A stretch of 64,000 bases of DNA from assembly GCA_001899145.1 (NCBI GenBank), contig MKVF01000004.1:62001-126000 (forward strand), written 5' to 3'. Origin of the DNA: Flavobacteriia bacterium 40-80. GTDB taxonomy: Bacteria > Bacteroidota > Bacteroidia > Flavobacteriales_D > Crocinitomicaceae. The notes beneath the pieces are model-generated. The model was given only the letters and a program-made list of their open reading frames with translations. It was not told where the DNA came from and searched no databases. A program made the position numbers and the translations under genes. Each line of letters starts with the position of its first letter. Position 1 is the stretch's first letter. This document shows positions 8,185 through 29,590 of this stretch, piece by piece.

Positions 8185-8192
8185 TAACTTTG
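8185..8192 (+). promoter_or_regulatory. Bacteroidota -7 box (TAnnTTTG) before the first cysteine-framed lipoprotein
   Basis: TAACTTTG matches the TAnnTTTG consensus exactly and lies 20 bp before the chosen ATG at 8213. No clear -33 TTTG is seen at the expected distance, so support comes from the -7 box alone. Confidence 0.45.
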
Positions 8193-8212: not shown

Positions 8213-8440
8213 ATGAAACAATCAGGAATTATATTATTCTCCGCTATTTTTCTTTCTTCCTGTGCGAAGACATGGAATTGTGAATGTCAGACGGCTTACG
8301 ACGAAACAACGGACACTCCTGTAATGAATACGTATGAAATTTCAAAAGCCACAAAACGGGAAGCAAAAGAACGTTGTGAGGGTACTTACTATGACGGTCC
8401 CTTCAAATTTGAGGCAAACAACATGTGTAAACTCAAATAA
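8213..8440 (+). CDS. Small cysteine-framed lipoprotein (family copy 1)
   Basis: 75 residues from ATG at 8213; an in-frame ATG at 8198 would add MILNN but sits almost on the expected transcription start. The SpII signal ends in lipobox LSSC. After the lipidated Cys comes AKTWNCECQTAYD, a K-rich helix (ATKREAKERC) and a terminal MCKLK. The pattern C-x(4-5)-C-x-C ... K-x(2-4)-A-x(2-3)-C ... C-x-(L/I/V) is shared with five other genes in this window. Four non-lipidated Cys could form two disulfides. No known domain is recognised. It likely sits at the surface-facing or periplasmic membrane leaflet. Separated by 86 bp from the next copy. Confidence 0.75.
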   Translation: MKQSGIILFSAIFLSSCAKTWNCECQTAYDETTDTPVMNTYEISKATKREAKERCEGTYYDGPFKFEANNMCKLK

Positions 8441-8496
8441 TTACTGAAATTCTGATTATATTGATTGATCGGTATTTTCAGAACCAATGAAAAATA

Positions 8497-8504
8497 TATA
8501 TTTG
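8497..8504 (+). promoter_or_regulatory. TAnnTTTG box before the lipoprotein/thioredoxin operon
   Basis: TATATTTG lies 22 bp before the ATG at 8527 and fits the -7 consensus. A matching -33 TTTG is not visible, so this is a moderate call for the promoter of the 8527-9834 gene run. Confidence 0.4.
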
Positions 8505-8526
8505 TAGCTAGCTTAAAAATTGATCT

Positions 8527-8739
8527 ATGAAAAAAGTTTTATTTATATCTGTCTCAGTATTTGCTTTAACTTCTTGTGTGAAAGACCATACCTGTGTTTG
8601 TACCGGCAAAAGCCACATTGAAAATACAGACATTAACTACAATTATAAGGTAAACGGTACAAAAAACAAAGCGAAAAAATCCTGCGAAGAGGACAGCTAC
8701 ACCAACACGGCAGCGGAAGTTACCTGTACATTAAAATGA
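8527..8739 (+). CDS. Small cysteine-framed lipoprotein (family copy 2)
   Basis: 70 residues. SpII signal MKKVLFISVSVFALTSC, then KDHTCVCTGK, a basic stretch (NKAKKSCEE) and TCTLK at the end. It keeps the lipidated Cys plus four spaced Cys of the family. Its stop codon overlaps the next start (ATGA at 8736-8739), so translation of the following lipoprotein is probably coupled. It opens a tight run of three such genes that ends in a thioredoxin-like membrane protein. Function unknown. Confidence 0.78.
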   Translation: MKKVLFISVSVFALTSCVKDHTCVCTGKSHIENTDINYNYKVNGTKNKAKKSCEEDSYTNTAAEVTCTLK

Positions 8740-8969
8740 TTTTGAAGCACATCGTGATTCTTTCTTTCCTTGTCCTTTTACTCTTTTCCTGTAAAAGGCA
8801 ATTTGCCTGTTGGTGCACAGCAAAGGTAACCGTGGATGGAGTGACTACCATCCATAAATACCAGGAGGCGGTTGTAGCCAAAACACGGAAAGAAGGAAAA
8901 AAACGATGTGAAAAGTATGCTCAGGATACGGAATATTCAGAAATTGAATGTGAACTATATGACTATTAA
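8736..8969 (+). CDS. Small cysteine-framed lipoprotein (family copy 3)
   Basis: 77 residues. Lipobox LFSC, followed by KRQFACWCTAK, the helix TRKEGKKRCEKYA, and IECELYDY. Starts inside the stop of copy 2 (4-bp overlap) and overlaps copy 4 by 11 bp. The Cys spacing is that of the family, with Trp between the two Cys of the CxC pair. The tight overlaps indicate one transcript and coupled translation. Unknown function. Confidence 0.78.
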   Translation: MILKHIVILSFLVLLLFSCKRQFACWCTAKVTVDGVTTIHKYQEAVVAKTRKEGKKRCEKYAQDTEYSEIECELYDY

Positions 8970-9177
8970 AAATATCGTTCTGACAACATCATTTTTAATC
9001 CTTGCTGCAGCCTGCAAAAAGCCATATACCTGTACCTGCACATCTACCTTGGGGAGCTTTGTGAGCACATCTGCCAGCGAGTCTAATTTTTCCTCAAAGA
9101 AGGAAGCGGAGGAAACCTGTAAGAAAAATGAAAATCTCACAGGATCGCCGAAGGTTGAGTGCAATATTATCCAGTAA
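8959..9177 (+). CDS. Small cysteine-framed lipoprotein (family copy 4)
   Basis: 72 residues from ATG at 8959. A longer frame from 8908 lacks a signal peptide at its start and lies inside copy 3, so the ATG that begins MTIKNIVLTTSFLILAAAC is preferred. Lipobox AAAC, then KKPYTCTCTST, SKKEAEETCKK and VECNIIQ. Followed after 9 bp by the thioredoxin-like gene. As for the other copies, four Cys beyond the lipid anchor are conserved. Confidence 0.75.
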   Translation: MTIKNIVLTTSFLILAAACKKPYTCTCTSTLGSFVSTSASESNFSSKKEAEETCKKNENLTGSPKVECNIIQ

Positions 9178-9186
9178 ACCAGTATT

Positions 9187-9834
9187 ATGTTATTAATCGT
9201 CAGCCTTCTTCTATCCACTCTCACCGTTGTATTTCATACATCTATTGAGGCATTTGTCTTAAACAGCGGCTTTTCGTGGACCGTAGCAAAGATTTTACCG
9301 TATTCTCTTTGTCTTGCTTTCGGAGCCATCGGCTTCTATTCGCTCTACAAGCTTTTAAAAGCAAAAAATAAAATGATCGGAATCATTGCAGGAATTGTTC
9401 TGATGAATCTCATTTTCTGGACGGACTTCAAATTTCATCCTATTTACCAGGGAGATTTTTCTAACGGAAGTGAGCAGTTCACCTCTGACGTTAAAGTGTT
9501 AAGGCCCGGATCACTGAGCGTCTTTGCAATTCCCGGCTGCCCTTTCTGTCACGGAAGCATCGAAAGTCTTAAAACCATTAAGAAACGCAAACCCGAGCTG
9601 GAAATTAATTTCATGGTCTGCTCGCTTGATAGTACCAGCGTAACTCAATATGAGAAGCCTGTCGACGGGAATTTCGGATTAATTCTTCTGAACGACAGCA
9701 CTACTTTCTCACAATTGAATATTCATTCTTTTCCCACTTTTATTTTTACCGATAAGCAAGGTAAGAAATACCGCTGGTCGAACGATACTTTTGGTGCTCC
9801 TGCCAAAGATTTTGTTGAAAGGAATGTTAAATAA
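9187..9834 (+). CDS. Membrane-anchored thioredoxin-fold protein with CPFC motif
   Basis: 215 residues. Three hydrophobic segments (about 2-20, 33-57, 63-80) anchor it in the inner membrane. The remainder (about 90-215) is a thioredoxin-like domain with redox pair CPFC at 118-121 (AIPGCPFCHGSIE) and a cis-Pro loop (IHSFPTFIFTDKQGK) near 183. Such domains exchange disulfides on the periplasmic side when anchored this way. It is the last gene of the run of cysteine-framed lipoproteins (9 bp after copy 4), so those lipoproteins are natural candidate substrates; this is inference from context. It lacks the eight-helix DsbD-type membrane domain, so its electron source is unclear. Confidence 0.75.
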   Translation: MLLIVSLLLSTLTVVFHTSIEAFVLNSGFSWTVAKILPYSLCLAFGAIGFYSLYKLLKAKNKMIGIIAGIVLMNLIFWTDFKFHPIYQGDFSNGSEQFTSDVKVLRPGSLSVFAIPGCPFCHGSIESLKTIKKRKPELEINFMVCSLDSTSVTQYEKPVDGNFGLILLNDSTTFSQLNIHSFPTFIFTDKQGKKYRWSNDTFGAPAKDFVERNVK

Positions 9835-9888: not shown

Positions 9889-10326
9889 ATGAAAACATAC
9901 AAAAAAATAGCTGCTTTTCTATTGATCGCCGTATTCATTTCTGCGACAATGGGAGTTACTATTTATAAGCATGTATGCCGTTCTGAGGGAGCTTTTACTT
10001 CTGTTTTTATCCAAAAAGAACACTCCTGTAAGGAACACAAAAAAGAAACAAAAGAATGTTGTCACAAAGAAACGAAGGAGACAAAGGAAGATTGCTGTAA
10101 AGATGAGATCAAATCCTATAAAGTTCAGAGTGATTATAATTACGAATCTCAAAAGATAAAATACCATTCGGTTTTATTGCTTCCATTCAAATGGCTTTTT
10201 AAAATCATTGGAAATTATTCCGATTCCGAGATCTCCCCGAAAAAAGTTTCGGGCTTTTTTGCAAACGCGCCCCCTTTTAAAAGCGGCATTTCTTATTTGC
10301 AGCACCTGCAAGTCTGGAGACTGTGA
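9889..10326 (+). CDS. HYC_CC_PP family protein
   Basis: 145 residues. Signal peptide or N-terminal membrane segment at about 6-25, followed by GVTIYKHVC (the HYC position, here HVC), a Lys/Glu/Cys-rich middle with two CC pairs (TKECCHKETK, KEDCCKDEIK) and a C-terminal ANAPPF (the PP motif). That motif order defines the HYC_CC_PP family, which in Bacteroidota is commonly found beside TonB receptors and HMA-domain proteins. Paired Cys and His suggest metal binding, likely copper or another soft metal, but this is inferred. First gene of a three-gene set. Confidence 0.75.
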   Translation: MKTYKKIAAFLLIAVFISATMGVTIYKHVCRSEGAFTSVFIQKEHSCKEHKKETKECCHKETKETKEDCCKDEIKSYKVQSDYNYESQKIKYHSVLLLPFKWLFKIIGNYSDSEISPKKVSGFFANAPPFKSGISYLQHLQVWRL

Positions 10327-10387
10327 TTTGATGTAGATTTTAGTCCTTATTTAAGGCTTTCAGTTTACATTTCAAATCACTTTTTTT
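10323..10387 (+). terminator. Hairpin plus T7 tract abutting the TonB receptor start codon
   Basis: GTGATTTGA at 10323-10331 pairs with TCAAATCAC at 10372-10380. The stem continues as TGTA/TACA after a 2-nt bulge, and a small CCTT/AAGG hairpin sits inside. Seven T follow at 10381-10387 and the ATG of the next gene is at 10388. The left arm overlaps the stop codon of the HYC_CC_PP gene. By form it is an intrinsic terminator or attenuator between two genes that look functionally linked. Confidence 0.55.
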
Positions 10388-12610
10388 ATGAAATATATTA
10401 AATATGTTTTTCTCATTTGCGTATTTCAGCTGAATGCACAAGTGAAAGGCGTAGTTTTCAGCATTGAGGAAAATCAGCATAAAACACCTCTTGCCTACGC
10501 CCAAATTAACTCGTCCGATAAATCTGTTTTCTATACGGATGAAAACGGGAATTTCGAATACATCATCTCCAGAAATGCTCCCGATACACTTATTTTTTCC
10601 TATCTGGGATACATTTCAGATACACTTATACTGAATAAATCCGACCGGTTTGCAGGTTATGAGATCCAGCTGTACCCAGAAAATATCCTGAAGGATATCA
10701 TCATCACAACGACTAAAAAATCTCACGGCATATCCAGAATGGACGCTTTGCAGGTAGAACGGATCGGACAGGGTGAGCTGCGGAAAGCAGCTTGCTGTAA
10801 TCTCTCCGAATCATTCGAAACCAACGCGTCCGTGGACGTAAACATGACAGATGCTGTCACCGGGACAAAGAAAATCCAGCTATTAGGGCTCGACGGTCAA
10901 TACACACAGATCCAGTTTGAAAATGTACCCGCACTCAGAGGCCTTGAAATGCCTTTCGGACTAAATTCCGTTCCCGGAACATGGGTAAACTCCATTCAGA
11001 TTACCAAAGGTGCGGGAAATGTTGTAAATGGTTACGAATCAATGGCGGGATTAATCAATGTGGAATTCCTAAAAGGACACGATCTTCCTCTTCTGTTCGT
11101 AAATCTTTACGGGAACATTTTCGGGCGCTTTGAAACAAATGTTCAGACAGGAATCGAAATTGGCAAGAAATGGTCAACCGGAATTTTTCTGCATTATTCT
11201 GAAAATTTTATGGAAATGGATCAGAATAAAGACGGGTTCAGGGACATTCCGGTAGGAAGACTGCTTTCTGCAATGAACCGCTGGAATTACGAAGGAGAAA
11301 AAATAGAAGCTCAATTCAGCATCAGGGCATTCCAGGAGAATAAATTTGCAGGACAGATCAATACGTTTGAACGGGATTTTGATACTCGTTACGGAACGGC
11401 ATTAAATCAGTCAGGTATAGAGTTTACATCAAAAACAGGCTTTTTATTCAAACAGGTATATCGCAGCCTCGGCGTAATTCTTAATTATAAATACCAGGAT
11501 CTGAACTTTAAGTTATCCAACACGAACTTTCAGGGATTTCAGAACAGAGTCTATGGGAATATCGTTTATGATGATATTTTCGGAAATACCTATCATAAAT
11601 ACAGAACCGGTCTGAGTTTTGTATATGATGACCTAAGCCAGAACCTGCTGCAACGAGGCAATCAGCTGTCAGATATCCGGACAGACGTGGTTCCCGGAGC
11701 TTTTTTCGAATATACCTATACCAGTACACGCTTTACAGGTGTGGCAGGACTTCGTTACGACCATCATTTAAAATTCAAAGGAATGCTTTCTCCGAGAATT
11801 CACGGAAAAGTAATTTTGACGGAAAAGACCGATCTTCGGTTTACCGCCGGAAGAGGCTGGAGAATGCCTAATTTTATGGTAGATAATCTTTCGCTGCTGG
11901 CTTCTTCCCGAAACTGGATAGCCAGTCAGGAATTACGCCCTGAGATTTCCTGGAATACCGGAATCTCCCTTGTACAGCGTTTTAAATTATTCGGACGGGA
12001 TGCTTCTGTCGTTGGAGATTATTATTATACATTCTTTGAGCAACAGCTGATTGTTGACCGGGATTTGGCATCCAACGAAGTGGTTTTTAAAAATCTGGAT
12101 GGCAGGTCTTTTTCTAATGCCGTTCAGATAGAGCTGGAAACAGAACCGCTCAAACGTTTTTTTGTAAGAATCGCCTATAAGTACCTTGATATTAAAGCAG
12201 AATATGGCAACAAGCTGCAACAACAGGTACTGATTCCAAAACACCGCGGAATGGTCAATCTCGCTTATAAAACGAGAAATAAACGCTGGGAGTTTGACCT
12301 GACAGGACATTTGTACGGGACATCACGACTTCCCGCTTACCAGGAAAGCGGAGTCGTAATCACCGACAAATGGACTCCTGTTTATCCAATTCTGAACGGC
12401 CAGGTGACTCATATTTACAAAAATTGGGATTTTTATATCGGTTTGGAGAACATGACCAATTATCGTCAGAAGAACCCGATTGTAGATGCGCAAAATCCAT
12501 TTGGAACTACTTTTGATGCAACACAGGTTTGGGGCCCCATTATGGGAACGAACGCTTATATTGGTATCAGATTTAACTTAAAACAAAAAAAACATGAAGA
12601 CAACGATTAA
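10388..12610 (+). CDS. TonB-dependent outer-membrane receptor, probably metal-related
   Basis: 740 residues. A signal peptide (ending near LNAQ) precedes a carboxypeptidase-regulatory-like domain (about 20-100), then a plug domain (about 115-235) with AACCNLSESFETNASVD, a CC-containing segment found in receptors paired with HMA proteins. The C-terminal 500 residues form the beta-barrel, ending in an alternating strand with terminal IGIRFNLKQKKHE. It imports a TonB-energised ligand across the outer membrane. Between a HYC_CC_PP gene and an HMA-domain gene (17-bp overlap with the latter), a metal or metallophore cargo is plausible; copper is a guess. Confidence 0.88.
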   Translation: MKYIKYVFLICVFQLNAQVKGVVFSIEENQHKTPLAYAQINSSDKSVFYTDENGNFEYIISRNAPDTLIFSYLGYISDTLILNKSDRFAGYEIQLYPENILKDIIITTTKKSHGISRMDALQVERIGQGELRKAACCNLSESFETNASVDVNMTDAVTGTKKIQLLGLDGQYTQIQFENVPALRGLEMPFGLNSVPGTWVNSIQITKGAGNVVNGYESMAGLINVEFLKGHDLPLLFVNLYGNIFGRFETNVQTGIEIGKKWSTGIFLHYSENFMEMDQNKDGFRDIPVGRLLSAMNRWNYEGEKIEAQFSIRAFQENKFAGQINTFERDFDTRYGTALNQSGIEFTSKTGFLFKQVYRSLGVILNYKYQDLNFKLSNTNFQGFQNRVYGNIVYDDIFGNTYHKYRTGLSFVYDDLSQNLLQRGNQLSDIRTDVVPGAFFEYTYTSTRFTGVAGLRYDHHLKFKGMLSPRIHGKVILTEKTDLRFTAGRGWRMPNFMVDNLSLLASSRNWIASQELRPEISWNTGISLVQRFKLFGRDASVVGDYYYTFFEQQLIVDRDLASNEVVFKNLDGRSFSNAVQIELETEPLKRFFVRIAYKYLDIKAEYGNKLQQQVLIPKHRGMVNLAYKTRNKRWEFDLTGHLYGTSRLPAYQESGVVITDKWTPVYPILNGQVTHIYKNWDFYIGLENMTNYRQKNPIVDAQNPFGTTFDATQVWGPIMGTNAYIGIRFNLKQKKHEDND

Positions 12611-12950
12611 ATTATTCATTGGAATAATATTCATATTCATTTCCTTTAACTCAAACGCTCAAAGCACGCCTGCAGTGACGGAAAAAACATTCAAGACTTC
12701 TGCGAATTGTTCTATGTGTAAAGAGCGAATTGAGGAGAAGCTCAATTACACCAAAGGAATCGTCTTTGCGGAATTAAATGTTCCTACCAAAATGCTGACG
12801 GTTAAATGGAAGACGAAAAAAATATCCGAGAGTGAAATAAAAAACCTCGTTTCTCATATCGGGTATGATATTGACGAAGTTCCTGCAAACGTGGAAAATC
12901 AAAGCAAACTACCATCTTGCTGTAAGCCTAATGCGGCGTGTGAGCACTGA
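12594..12950 (+). CDS. Heavy-metal-associated (HMA) domain protein, secreted
   Basis: 118 residues: signal peptide about 1-22 (ending SNAQ) and a single HMA ferredoxin-like domain (about 30-95) with metal-binding Cys39 and Cys42 in SANCSMCKERIE. A C-terminal tail adds three Cys (SCCKPNAACEH), possibly a second metal site. Overlaps the receptor gene by 17 bp, so translation is probably coupled. The natural role is periplasmic capture or hand-over of a soft metal ion entering or leaving via the receptor. Confidence 0.88.
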   Translation: MKTTIKLFIGIIFIFISFNSNAQSTPAVTEKTFKTSANCSMCKERIEEKLNYTKGIVFAELNVPTKMLTVKWKTKKISESEIKNLVSHIGYDIDEVPANVENQSKLPSCCKPNAACEH

Positions 12951-22817: not shown

Positions 22818-23417
22818 TTATTCATTTTCAGCCACTACTTCCTTCACTTCCGCTATGTGCTGCTTTAAAATCGTCTCAATACCATGCTTCAGCGTTACTG
22901 TCGAAGACGGACAGCCGGCACAGGATCCTTTCAACATTACAGTAACCACTCCTTCATGAAAATTTCTGAATTCAATGGCACCGCCGTCATTTTCAACAGC
23001 AGGGCGTACAAATTCATCTAAAATATTACGTATGGCATCATCAAACTCAGACGGTGCATAACTTTTTTGCTCAACCATACTCTCTTTTGAAGGTTGCGGA
23101 CGTTCTGCCGGCATCTGAATCAAAATGTCCTTTCCTTCCTGAATCCAGTTTTTAATGAATTCACGCAATTCCATTGTAATATAATCCCAAGTAATGCTTT
23201 CGTTTTTGGTAACCGTTATAAAATTACTGGAAATAAAAACGGATTTCACAAACGGGAATTTAAACAGCTCTTCCGCCAGAGGAGAATATCCTTTTGCTTC
23301 TGCCACTGAGTAAAATTCCGCTGTTTTCTCAGACATGATAAGGTATTTGTTAGCTACAAATTTCATAGTAGCCGGATTCGGAGTCATCTCCGCATATAAT
23401 GTAATCGGAACGTTCAT
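22818..23417 (-). CDS. Nfu-type Fe-S cluster scaffold/carrier protein
   Basis: 199 residues. N-terminal Nfu_N domain (about 6-95; TPNPATMKFVANK, KFPFVKSVFISSNFITVTK), an acidic/proline linker, and a C-terminal NifU-like domain (about 118-195) with the cluster-binding CxxC in LKGSCAGCPSSTVTLKHGIE. Such proteins carry [4Fe-4S] clusters from the assembly machinery to client enzymes in the cytoplasm. Length and domain order match the Bacteroidota Nfu proteins. It heads a three-gene run. Confidence 0.92.
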   Translation of the reverse strand: MNVPITLYAEMTPNPATMKFVANKYLIMSEKTAEFYSVAEAKGYSPLAEELFKFPFVKSVFISSNFITVTKNESITWDYITMELREFIKNWIQEGKDILIQMPAERPQPSKESMVEQKSYAPSEFDDAIRNILDEFVRPAVENDGGAIEFRNFHEGVVTVMLKGSCAGCPSSTVTLKHGIETILKQHIAEVKEVVAENE

Positions 23418-23619
23418 ATTTTTATTTTGTAATGCAAAAATACAATTCGGTAATCAATCTTTTTCTTTTTTATATAAACTTTAAAAGTTTCAGTACAATA
23501 TACACAAAACCCACAAAAGTTATCAAATTGTTAAATCAAATATTAATTTAAAAAATAAGGATTCATAATTAGTTTTTTTTTAGCTACTTTAACGTCATAA
23601 TTTCAAAAAACTTAACAAA

Positions 23620-23829
23620 ATGAAAAAAGTATTATTTGTTGCTGCTGTTGCAGTATTAGGATTATCATCCTGCAAAAAAGATTGGACATGTAGCTGCACA
23701 GGAACATCAGGTTCAGCAAACGTAGCAACTTACAGCAACACAACTAAAAAATTAGCAACGGATGCATGTAAGACTTACGAAACAAATGCAAAAACTGTTT
23801 TCCCTAATATTGCTTGTGAAGTGAAATAA
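23620..23829 (+). CDS. Small cysteine-framed lipoprotein (family copy 5)
   Basis: 69 residues. SpII signal MKKVLFVAAVAVLGLSSC, then KKDWTCSCTGTSG, an alanine/threonine helix with TKKLATDACK, and NIACEVK at the end. The signal is nearly identical to that of copy 6, so these two are the closest pair in the family. It stands alone between a long AT-rich leader and a good terminator, suggesting strong independent expression. Function unknown; the Cys pattern equals that of the 8.2-9.2 kb copies. Confidence 0.8.
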   Translation: MKKVLFVAAVAVLGLSSCKKDWTCSCTGTSGSANVATYSNTTKKLATDACKTYETNAKTVFPNIACEVK

Positions 23830-24115: not shown

Positions 24116-24313
24116 ATGAAAAAAGTATTATTTGTTGCAGCTGTTGCGGTATTGGGATTCACTTCCTGCAAAAAAACATGGATGTGTGAATGTAAATGGT
24201 CTTACAATACTACATTAGACGGAATAGTGGATACAAAGAAAAATGCTCAGACTGCATGTGAAGCAAAAAGCAATGCTACTGTTGGAAAAACCTGCACGCT
24301 CTTGTCACACTGA
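24116..24313 (+). CDS. Small cysteine-framed lipoprotein (family copy 6)
   Basis: 65 residues. SpII signal MKKVLFVAAVAVLGFTSC, followed by KKTWMCECKWS, KKNAQTACEAK and KTCTLLSH. The four post-lipobox Cys are retained. Has its own terminator. The first 18 codons match copy 5 almost exactly at DNA level, which points to recent duplication with faster divergence of the mature part. Function unknown. Confidence 0.78.
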   Translation: MKKVLFVAAVAVLGFTSCKKTWMCECKWSYNTTLDGIVDTKKNAQTACEAKSNATVGKTCTLLSH

Positions 24314-27428: not shown

Positions 27429-28088
27429 TCATTCTCTATATCTGAAATACTTACCTGTTTTTGAATCTCTTGTAACATTCATCTGTTCTCCGGAATCAAT
27501 ACTTCTAACAAGCAGGTAATTTCCTTTATCACTTTTCTTAGCTGCATTTGAATCGAACCGAAACTCAGGAAAGCCTTCAACGGTCTGAATATTCAGGCTT
27601 TCCAGGTAAACAAGCCGGAGCGAATCATGGCTGCGTTCCGACAATTCTTTCTCTATGTTTTCAATCATTCGTTTTTTTACAACTTTTTTTCTCCAGTTTT
27701 CTGCTTTATTCTCCCCCAAATCAAACAGACTTGTGGAAGGAGGTTCATTGTATAATTTCTGAAGCGTAACGTAAGTAGCAAAATCTGATTCTTCAGATTT
27801 TAACAATTCGAGAATATCGTCTGATCTGAGAGTTTTCAGATAATTAGTATAAGAGCTGTCCAGAATTATTTCAAAGCCTATTGTATAATACAGCCCATTA
27901 TCGGCTTTTCCGGATGATAAGACAACCTGATAGCTAAAAGAATCATTCAGCAGCATGCGCTCTCTTTTTTCCAAATATATTGTATCATTGCCGTGCTCCT
28001 GTGAAACAGAATAATCCGCTTTTCCTTTACAACCAGGTAAAAGAACAAAAAGTACAACAATGATCAATCCGATATTTTTAATTTCCAT
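27429..28088 (-). CDS. Lipoprotein, tandem family copy C
   Basis: 219 residues from ATG at 28088; a longer frame from 28127 has no signal peptide at its start and lies in the upstream copy. The lipobox LLPGC leads to KGKADYSVSQEH. The middle is helical and charged. The last 55 residues (NIQTVEGFPEFRFDSNAAKK ... SIDSGEQMNVTRDSKTGKY) are almost identical to those of the neighbouring copy and similar to those of the larger protein upstream. Overlaps copy B by 11 bp. No known family is recognised. Confidence 0.72.
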   Translation of the reverse strand: MEIKNIGLIIVVLFVLLPGCKGKADYSVSQEHGNDTIYLEKRERMLLNDSFSYQVVLSSGKADNGLYYTIGFEIILDSSYTNYLKTLRSDDILELLKSEESDFATYVTLQKLYNEPPSTSLFDLGENKAENWRKKVVKKRMIENIEKELSERSHDSLRLVYLESLNIQTVEGFPEFRFDSNAAKKSDKGNYLLVRSIDSGEQMNVTRDSKTGKYFRYRE

Positions 28089-28737
28089 ACTTCGAATATT
28101 TACCTGTTTTTGAATCTCTTGTAACATTCATCTGTTCTCCGGAATCAATACTTCTAACAAGCAGATAATTTCCTTTATCACTTTTCTTAGCTGCATTTGA
28201 ATCGAACCGAAACTCAGGAAAGCCTTCAACGGTCTGGATATTCAGACTTTCCAGGTAAACAAGCCGGAGTGAATCATGGTTACGTTCTGACAATTCCTCT
28301 TTCCAATATTCAATCACTCGTCTTTTTACAACTTGCTTTCTCCAGTTCTCAGCTTTATTTTTATCTAAATCAAACAAACTCGGAGAAGGAAATTCATCAT
28401 ATAATTTTTTGAGTGCAACATAAGTTGCCAAGTCTGATTCTTCTGACTTTAACAACTTAAGAATATATTCTGATTTAAGAGTTTTCAGATAATTGGTATA
28501 AGAACTGTCCAGAATTATTTCAAAGCCTGCGGTATAATACAGACCATTCTCCGACCGGTCATATATCCGTGCAATCTCATAATAAAAAGAATCATTCAAT
28601 AATATATATTCTTTCTTTTCTGCAAATGTGGTATCATTGACATGTTCCTGTGAAATAGAATAATCCGCTTTTCCTTTACAGCTCAGTAAAAAAACAAAAA
28701 ACGAAATAATGATTAACCCATTGTTTTTAGTCTTCAT
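28078..28737 (-). CDS. Lipoprotein, tandem family copy B
   Basis: 219 residues. Signal with lipobox LLSC, then KGKADYSISQEHVND, GLYYTAGFEIILDSSYTNYLKTLKSE, a helical segment, and the shared C-terminal domain ending KTGKYSKYGN. It is the same length as copy C, and DNA identity with it is highest over the last 170 bp at an offset of 649 bp. It overlaps the upstream larger gene by 11 bp, exactly as copy C overlaps it, so each unit was copied with its junction. Function unknown. Confidence 0.75.
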   Translation of the reverse strand: MKTKNNGLIIISFFVFLLSCKGKADYSISQEHVNDTTFAEKKEYILLNDSFYYEIARIYDRSENGLYYTAGFEIILDSSYTNYLKTLKSEYILKLLKSEESDLATYVALKKLYDEFPSPSLFDLDKNKAENWRKQVVKRRVIEYWKEELSERNHDSLRLVYLESLNIQTVEGFPEFRFDSNAAKKSDKGNYLLVRSIDSGEQMNVTRDSKTGKYSKYGN

Positions 28738-29590
28738 ATTTTGAATATTTACCTGTTTTCGGATTTCTTACAACGTTCATTTCTTTTCCGGAATCAATGC
28801 TTTTAACAATCAGGTAATTTCCCTTACTGCTTCTTTTCGCAACATTTGAATCAAATCTGAAATCAGGAAAACCTTCAACCGTTTGAATATTAGCATGATC
28901 CATTAAATAGGCTTTTCTTAGATCAATTCCCAACTGCTCATAACGTGCAAGATGCGTCGTCCCTGCTACTACTCTGGCCCTGATATCAGTGGTCTTATCA
29001 TTATTATATTGCTCCAATAATTTGTCTGTCTTCTCATCACCATACGAATATTCGATCTGCGCAGCTACCTTTAACTGGTTGATCTCGCCTTCCTTTTCAA
29101 GCTCTGCCCATTTTAAAGCAAACTGTTTTGGAGTAATTTCACCTTTTGCTACTAGATTTTTATATTTTCCAAATTTAGCCGTCAACAATCTGTTGGTCAT
29201 CTCATGTGCTAAAACCAAAATAATAGTCTCTAATTCAGATATTTGCTTAATTCTTATTTTTCCCGTGTCAGGATCAGTATCTCCCAATACGCTAATTGTA
29301 GTTGATAACGAAATAACTTCCGAATAGTTTGCTAAAGTGATACCGTTTCGCTGCATTAATACTGCAAAGGTGACACTTCTCTTTTTCGCATAGTCCAGCG
29401 CTTCATATATAACAGACGGTGGCTCGCTTTTTGTCTGCTGGAAGGCAATGCTTATTTCTTCCGGTTTTTCGGATTGTACTTCCTGGAAATTTACTTTTGT
29501 TTCCGGTTTTTTCGGCATTACCTTCCGGCGAAACAAGCTATTATGAGAACTCGTCAGATTCGATTGGGGTTTATGAAGGCGTGTATGCAT
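28727..29590 (-). CDS. Uncharacterised protein sharing its C-terminal domain with two lipoproteins (copy A)
   Basis: 287 residues starting MHTRLHKPQSNLTSS; an internal start at residue 25 (MPKKPETK) is possible. No signal peptide is visible. The central part (about 55-200) contains a hydrophobic helix with HE (TIILVLAHEMTNRLL), a pattern that recalls but does not meet the HExxH zincin motif. Residues about 232-287 (NIQTVEGFPDFRFDSNVAKR ... MNVVRNPKTGKYSKYED) match the C-terminal domain of the two downstream lipoproteins. All three form one overlapping operon. I do not recognise the family. A secreted effector or surface protein with lipoprotein partners is one possibility, unproven. Confidence 0.7.
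   Translation of the reverse strand: MHTRLHKPQSNLTSSHNSLFRRKVMPKKPETKVNFQEVQSEKPEEISIAFQQTKSEPPSVIYEALDYAKKRSVTFAVLMQRNGITLANYSEVISLSTTISVLGDTDPDTGKIRIKQISELETIILVLAHEMTNRLLTAKFGKYKNLVAKGEITPKQFALKWAELEKEGEINQLKVAAQIEYSYGDEKTDKLLEQYNNDKTTDIRARVVAGTTHLARYEQLGIDLRKAYLMDHANIQTVEGFPDFRFDSNVAKRSSKGNYLIVKSIDSGKEMNVVRNPKTGKYSKYED

Follow-up and report, generated by a model that had tools for sequence, protein, structure and literature searches.

The small cysteine lipoproteins and the membrane thioredoxin (TrxM) encoded together in the DNA analysed here form a real and conserved pair, and represent a new enzyme-client family rather than a new chemistry. TrxM is probably a thiol-disulfide oxidoreductase of the inner membrane that faces the periplasm, with the small lipoproteins as clients that it matures by forming or reshuffling their disulfides. 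The computed basis for this proposal is the conserved pairing of the genes, their co-occurrence, the even cysteine counts, the predicted folds of both proteins and the positive-inside topology of TrxM. From it we infer a direct action of TrxM on the lipoproteins, serving their maturation rather than their reduction in use, as well as the place and timing of that action.

The window, by which we mean the whole 64,000-nucleotide stretch analysed, contains the following features.

8185..8192, + strand: TAnnTTTG-box match TAACTTTG, 20 bp before Lp1; such a match alone is no functional evidence
8213..8440, + strand: Lp1, cysteine lipoprotein of 75 aa that matches the family profile
8497..8504, + strand: TAnnTTTG-box match TATATTTG, 22 bp before Lp2
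8527..8739, + strand: Lp2, cysteine lipoprotein of 70 aa; mature domain modelled as beta-beta-alpha-beta (pLDDT 93.8)
8736..8969, + strand: Lp3, cysteine lipoprotein of 77 aa, overlapping Lp2 by 4 bp
8959..9177, + strand: Lp4, cysteine lipoprotein of 72 aa from the ATG at 8959, overlapping Lp3 by 11 bp
9187..9834, + strand: TrxM, membrane protein of 215 aa; its thioredoxin domain is predicted to be periplasmic and has the motif C118-P-F-C121, with the conserved P183 occupying the cis-Pro position
23620..23829, + strand: fifth lipoprotein copy, 69 aa, divergent from a NifU-like gene
24116..24313, + strand: sixth lipoprotein copy, 65 aa

The original prediction, made from the sequence of this stretch, described an operon of four lipoproteins and a thioredoxin. 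The coordinates bear out the two overlaps and the gap of 9 bp between Lp4 and TrxM, and Lp2-Lp3-Lp4-TrxM is a tight unit; Lp1 falls outside it. TAnnTTTG is the consensus of the Bacteroidota -7 box. Since 86 bp separate Lp1 and Lp2 and both have a box of their own in front, Lp2-Lp3-Lp4-TrxM would probably be a single transcript, possibly starting at TATATTTG, with Lp1 started separately. Such boxes are not enriched in the window (60 observed against 71.6 expected by chance), and it is their placement before Lp1 and Lp2, unlike their overall number, that is suggestive.

Each of Lp1-Lp4 has the predicted architecture on 70-77 residues: a lipobox cysteine, a C-x-C, a lysine-rich stretch with one cysteine and a terminal C-x-(L/I), the C-terminal motifs being CKLK, CTLK, CELY and CNII. 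The six copies counted in the window were recovered and two more lie on another contig (L004, L005), giving eight in the genome. Their five cysteines are invariant in 8/8 of these copies and across 81 aligned mature sequences, 79 of which are distinct TrxM-linked copies. Chance open reading frames are ruled out by full-length homologues of both families, with invariant cysteines, in many genomes. No known lipoprotein family was matched by Lp1-Lp4 over the Pfam or NCBIfam cut-offs, and the 81 aligned sequences gave only isolated weak matches at E<=0.01 (three in Pfam, one in NCBIfam).

In the model of mature Lp2, C7 and C9 lie on strand 1, C37 at the end of the helix and C51 on strand 3. Foldseek found no match to this model at E<=0.001, and a sequence search of the PDB found none at E<=1. 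The best match in a second structure comparison was PurS (Z 5.8), which may reflect merely a common arrangement of the modelled fold. The signal for surface export of Bacteroidota lipoproteins, as given for Capnocytophaga canimorsus (PMC5080379), is C-X-K-(D/E)2-X. Neither K-(D/E)2 nor Q-A-(D/E)2 follows the lipid cysteine in any of the 81 lipoproteins (lysine occupies +3 in 79 and one acidic residue +4 in 63), so that by sequence a periplasm-facing location is more likely than surface exposure.

Cysteines were counted in 138 distinct lipoprotein frames at E<=1e-6 among the loci examined, one of which is a frameshift fragment. The number of non-lipid cysteines is even in all 137 intact frames, which were chosen by profile and not randomly and are thus biased toward the canonical pattern. 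Four canonical non-lipid cysteines are present in 132 (127 counted by script and five by eye, where the script had anchored at a cysteine of the signal peptide). Among the other five frames, one carries two additional cysteines, three have two cysteines only, and the fifth combines two canonical cysteines with an extra CxxC. Four of these deviating frames each lack both the second cysteine of the CxC and the last cysteine; in none is either lost singly. The even numbers and the paired loss support disulfides and not a four-cysteine metal site. Joint loss of the second CxC cysteine and the last cysteine would imply that C9 pairs with C51 (Lp2 mature numbering), leaving C7-C37 as the second predicted pair, in agreement with the modelled fold.

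The same pattern makes a role in metal handling quite improbable. The CxC and the other two cysteines would then hold a soft metal such as copper, at a site that TrxM would keep reduced, as TlpA keeps the Sco1 site reduced. The cysteines, however, change pairwise and stay even in number, as disulfides do, and no conserved histidine or methionine accompanies them. What favours metal handling is the gene neighbourhood: an HYC_CC_PP protein, a TonB receptor and an HMA protein lie 3' of TrxM in the window, HYC_CC_PP-like or TonB genes do so in some genomes of g15 and g16 (in G049 and G063 with no lipoprotein there), and TrxM of g11 often follows a ZIP-like gene (named by eye). Against this, HYC_CC_PP or the same TonB cluster borders few of the 48 flanking contexts described below.

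TrxM itself was anticipated to be a three-helix membrane protein with a CPFC thioredoxin domain, and the AlphaFold2 model (mean pLDDT 97.0) agrees, showing long helices compatible with three membrane spans, followed by a thioredoxin fold. All 82 aligned TrxM sequences share P85, C118, C121 and P183. A CxxC is found in 123 of the 124 strong TrxM places, the sole exception being a fragment, and the first such motif reads CPYC in 44 and CPFC in 37. The loop that joins helices 2 and 3 carries a mean net charge of +4.4 and the outer segments carry -1.0 and -1.6, from which the thioredoxin domain is predicted to face the periplasm. The best Foldseek match of the model is 1lu4 (E 3.5e-6, prob 1.00), a secreted disulfide oxidoreductase of M. 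tuberculosis which we take to be DsbE; 22 PDB chains match at E<=0.001, and DsbF, ResA, TlpA and CcmG are among the matches. TrxM resembles TlpA, ResA, CcmG and M. tuberculosis DsbE-DsbF in its thioredoxin fold, CxxC and conserved proline. It differs from them in that its family has mainly CPFC or CPYC, a multi-helix anchor and apparently specific clients, and the window TrxM passes no Pfam cut-off (the best, Thioredoxin_2, scores 20.3 bits where 27 are required). At E<=1e-3, a different criterion from the family cut-offs, 14 of 82 TrxM relatives match Thioredoxin_9 (best 6e-7) and 10 match Redoxin (best 1e-7). Plasmid-borne spread of TrxM was rejected, as 72,556 plasmid records gave no match to it at E<=1e-5.

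The original prediction proposed a profile survey of linkage alongside the structure predictions given above. Within the family, the TrxM profile matched 133/150 genomes at E<=1e-3. Linkage was counted over the 124 strong TrxM places (fragments included, two pieces in G050 and one in G023) in flanks of 1.5 or 2.5 kb, shorter at contig ends. A lipoprotein gene lies within 1 kb on the same strand in 61/124 (56 upstream) and on the opposite strand in 1/124; about 0.15 would be expected by chance (arithmetic from 417 lipoprotein matches in 150 genomes of ~3 Mb each). The linked cases come from 16/24 genera. These 61 do not include the one-disulfide variants, a copy with a frameshift ahead of TrxM in G009 or what is probably a tail fragment in G023. 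The linked pairs are surrounded by 35 upstream clusters, 34 downstream clusters and 48 flanking combinations (blastp E<=1e-8, contig ends taken as one class). A tree built from 122 TrxM rows shows 21 changes of the linked state, and well-supported branches force no fewer than 14 of these. Given the varied flanks and the repeated changes on the tree, the lipoprotein and TrxM genes remain or return together despite changing surroundings.

About a fifth of the lipoprotein copies are linked in cis (~80 against the 417 matches), and unlinked TrxM genes frequently have different neighbours in common, for example topB in g7 and the ZIP-like gene in g11 (names by eye). A majority of homologues with no linked thioredoxin is what the original prediction had named as counting against it; most copies are indeed unlinked, but strong lipoprotein matches occur almost only in genomes with TrxM. 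The lipoprotein was found (E<=1e-6) in 98 of 117 family genomes with strong TrxM (E<=1e-12) against 5 of the 33 without (150 genomes, Fisher p 3.8e-13). The same holds within four genera, with counts for genomes with and without TrxM of 7/7 against 0/6 in g2, 6/6 against 1/6 in g10, 9/9 against 1/10 in g18 and 11/12 against 0/7 in g19. A stratified test gives p 1.5e-10, to be read with the caveat that genomes within a genus are related and hence not independent, that some are incomplete and that independent losses were uncounted. TrxM-bearing genomes of these four genera hold at least 55 lipoprotein matches unlinked to TrxM, so loss of a single cassette would not clear all lipoproteins.

Five genomes have lipoproteins without strong TrxM, and in one of them, G111, a contig edge carries a fragment of TrxM. 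In the reverse direction, no lipoprotein was found at E<=1e-6 in 19/117 genomes with TrxM. This asymmetry is the pattern expected of clients that require their enzyme. TrxM genomes without a lipoprotein, together with TrxM clades that sit beside other genes, indicate that TrxM must have other or additional roles.

The outside of the family was surveyed in an order sample of 249 genomes, with lipoproteins in 90 (E<=1e-4) and TrxM relatives in 109 (E<=1e-8), both counts including the family genomes. At least 15 of the 31 listed TrxM places outside the family are linked, in f3, f5, f9 and f61. Twenty of the 31 were examined, 14 of them chosen because the pair was already apparent; in 15 of these 20 a same-strand lipoprotein gene immediately precedes TrxM. 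Of the remaining five, L266 and L268 are cut off by a contig end. There is one further outside pair (L189), whose partner was found only in a separate profile run. Many of the TrxM partners outside the family are ~300 aa long. MauE was matched in two of four scanned partners, both from f9 (E 3.1e-20 and 1.3e-20), which are thus MauE-thioredoxin fusions; the scanned partners from f3 and f61 gave no MauE match. Motifs like CGCFG or CGCTG were seen by eye in L189, L259, L260 and L261. A phylum sample of 296 genomes yielded lipoproteins in three (E<=1e-3) and TrxM in six (E<=1e-8), and from this scarcity the lipoprotein-TrxM system looks concentrated in the order. Among these phylum hits, the TrxM relatives of f26 and f40 (L185-L188) have no lipoprotein in their short flanks, and one genome of f14 (G181) has five lipoproteins and no TrxM at E<=1e-8.

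The lipoprotein and TrxM genes are adjacent in five families of the order and tend to be present or absent jointly, which strongly supports a functional tie between the two. That the two are inherited bystanders, envelope genes which are adjacent with no action on each other, is in our judgement scarcely probable. Most lipoprotein copies, and entire TrxM clades, are unlinked, as bystanders might be. Bystanders would not be expected to persist as a pair across changing flanks, nor to recur in other families with TrxM relatives of different membrane architecture, nor to show dispersed lipoprotein copies that are absent where TrxM is absent, in four genera.

MauD, of the methylamine utilisation cluster, has a thioredoxin-like fold. 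With the small membrane protein MauE it offers the nearest precedent, a membrane redox pair tied, as TrxM appears to be, to one cysteine-rich periplasmic client, and two f9 partners of the same lipoproteins are MauE fused to a thioredoxin domain. One source speculates that MauE forms the disulfide bridges of methylamine dehydrogenase; it also reports homologues of mauE, in one case together with mauD, in candidate RiPP clusters of Streptomyces (PMC7794033). There are differences: the clients here are multicopy lipoproteins, and a search for the MauE domain in the window TrxM found nothing at E<=1, so that by this test TrxM is no member. The best reading by analogy is that the TrxM-lipoprotein pair works like MauE/MauD. 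The original claim that no such system had been described holds for the pair itself, of which no description was found in the literature searched (top-ranked matches, with most subscription papers and bioRxiv preprints outside the scope), but not in general, as MauE/MauD is a described precedent.

Two other systems invite comparison. DsbL/DsbI is a dedicated Dsb pair accompanying arylsulfate sulfotransferase, and shares with the present locus a thiol oxidoreductase gene beside the gene of its own client; unlike that system, the genome of the window has no DsbB match. Etrx1/Etrx2 of Streptococcus pneumoniae are reportedly envelope thioredoxin lipoproteins that serve methionine sulfoxide reductase. 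They too form an envelope thioredoxin system involving lipoproteins, but the Etrx lipoproteins are themselves of the thioredoxin family whereas those described here are modelled as small beta-beta-alpha-beta domains.

We propose that the clients of TrxM are encoded both next to its gene and at other sites in the genome. Once lipidated at the inner membrane they would need two disulfides, predicted as C7-C37 and C9-C51, and the presence of strand-1 cysteines at i and i+2 would make mispairing easy. TrxM, adjacent in the inner membrane, would make or reshuffle the pairs, and the lipoproteins with their disulfides set would then move to the outer membrane. The genome of the window contains DsbD (E 6.5e-28), while VKOR and DsbB were searched for there and neither was found. 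This fits a reductive or isomerising role of TrxM better than that of an oxidase, and makes a DsbD-fed isomerase or reductase as likely as an oxidase. The original prediction that the thioredoxin forms, breaks or reads the lipoprotein disulfides is supported as to the tie and the disulfides, the latter by even numbers and paired changes, while TrxM may form, break, reshuffle or read them.

The reducing power offered by DsbD, in a genome with no VKOR or DsbB found, would also suit a redox relay, in which the lipoproteins, held reduced or switched by TrxM, pass electrons on to repair outer-membrane or surface proteins, comparable to pneumococcal Etrx. We regard such a relay as unlikely. In its favour, the CxC is a chemically plausible site of thiol exchange, and lipoprotein matches reach 14 per genome, among the 150 of the family, where TrxM is mostly single. 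However, the paired cysteine changes speak against the CxC as an obligatory reactive pair: three of the four variants lacking its second cysteine and the last cysteine adjoin TrxM or sit among TrxM-linked copies (L165, L170, L111). The lipoprotein model is, moreover, not a thioredoxin fold.

Maturation by TrxM remains our preferred reading, and a broader version can be put forward as a speculation that we hold with little confidence. One membrane thioredoxin (or MauE-thioredoxin) would both write and read the disulfides of multicopy, fast-diverging two-disulfide lipoproteins that are retained only where a genome has the enzyme, as a system specific to the order in which the lipoproteins form a redox-set outer-membrane layer. 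To our knowledge, disulfide oxidation and proofreading in Bacteroidota lipoproteins are poorly known. The pair provides a compact set of enzyme and clients with one, two or three predicted disulfides, and close relatives without the whole set, so that the choice of clients by a membrane thioredoxin becomes directly testable. It also brings to light a lipoprotein family that has no Pfam or NCBIfam model, and it provides a new candidate class of clients for the MauE domain.

Several observations concern the surroundings of these genes. MauE is present in the genome of the window at another site (L271:1053-1893, - strand), as a stand-alone protein (E 4e-21) beside an 89-aa two-cysteine protein that is weakly DUF6520-like (E 9e-4, below cut-off), again MauE adjoining a small cysteine protein. 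Downstream of TrxM, 9889-12950 encodes the HYC_CC_PP family protein (NF047658, E 3e-14), the TonB receptor and the HMA protein. HYC_CC_PP-like genes are also 3' of TrxM in G049, G063 and G064, and in L013 (G015) an HYC_CC_PP-similar protein and a TonB-like gene follow it. Within 22818-23829 the NifU-like gene is divergent from the lipoprotein copy, and a similar gene adjoins the lipoprotein-TrxM pair in L010 and L013. With the NifU-like gene bordering the pair at those loci, an ancestral NifU-like/lipoprotein/TrxM site may have been split in the window genome and TrxM relocated.

A search of named genomes with a single window protein as query found one relative, a Flavobacteriia MAG from groundwater whose gene pair resembles that of G014. 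At L012:1468-2292 (- strand) the TrxM frame follows directly after the lipoprotein stop, in the same frame and with no ATG at its front; translation of TrxM perhaps begins at a TTG or results from read-through of that stop. In G010 the TrxM gene is followed, at L011:2267-2658, by a tandem of two additional partial copies of its own 3' end. Elsewhere in the window, at 27429-29590 (- strand), three adjacent genes share by eye a similar C-terminal tail of ~50 residues, and the first two, unlike the third, are alike in their front part as well.
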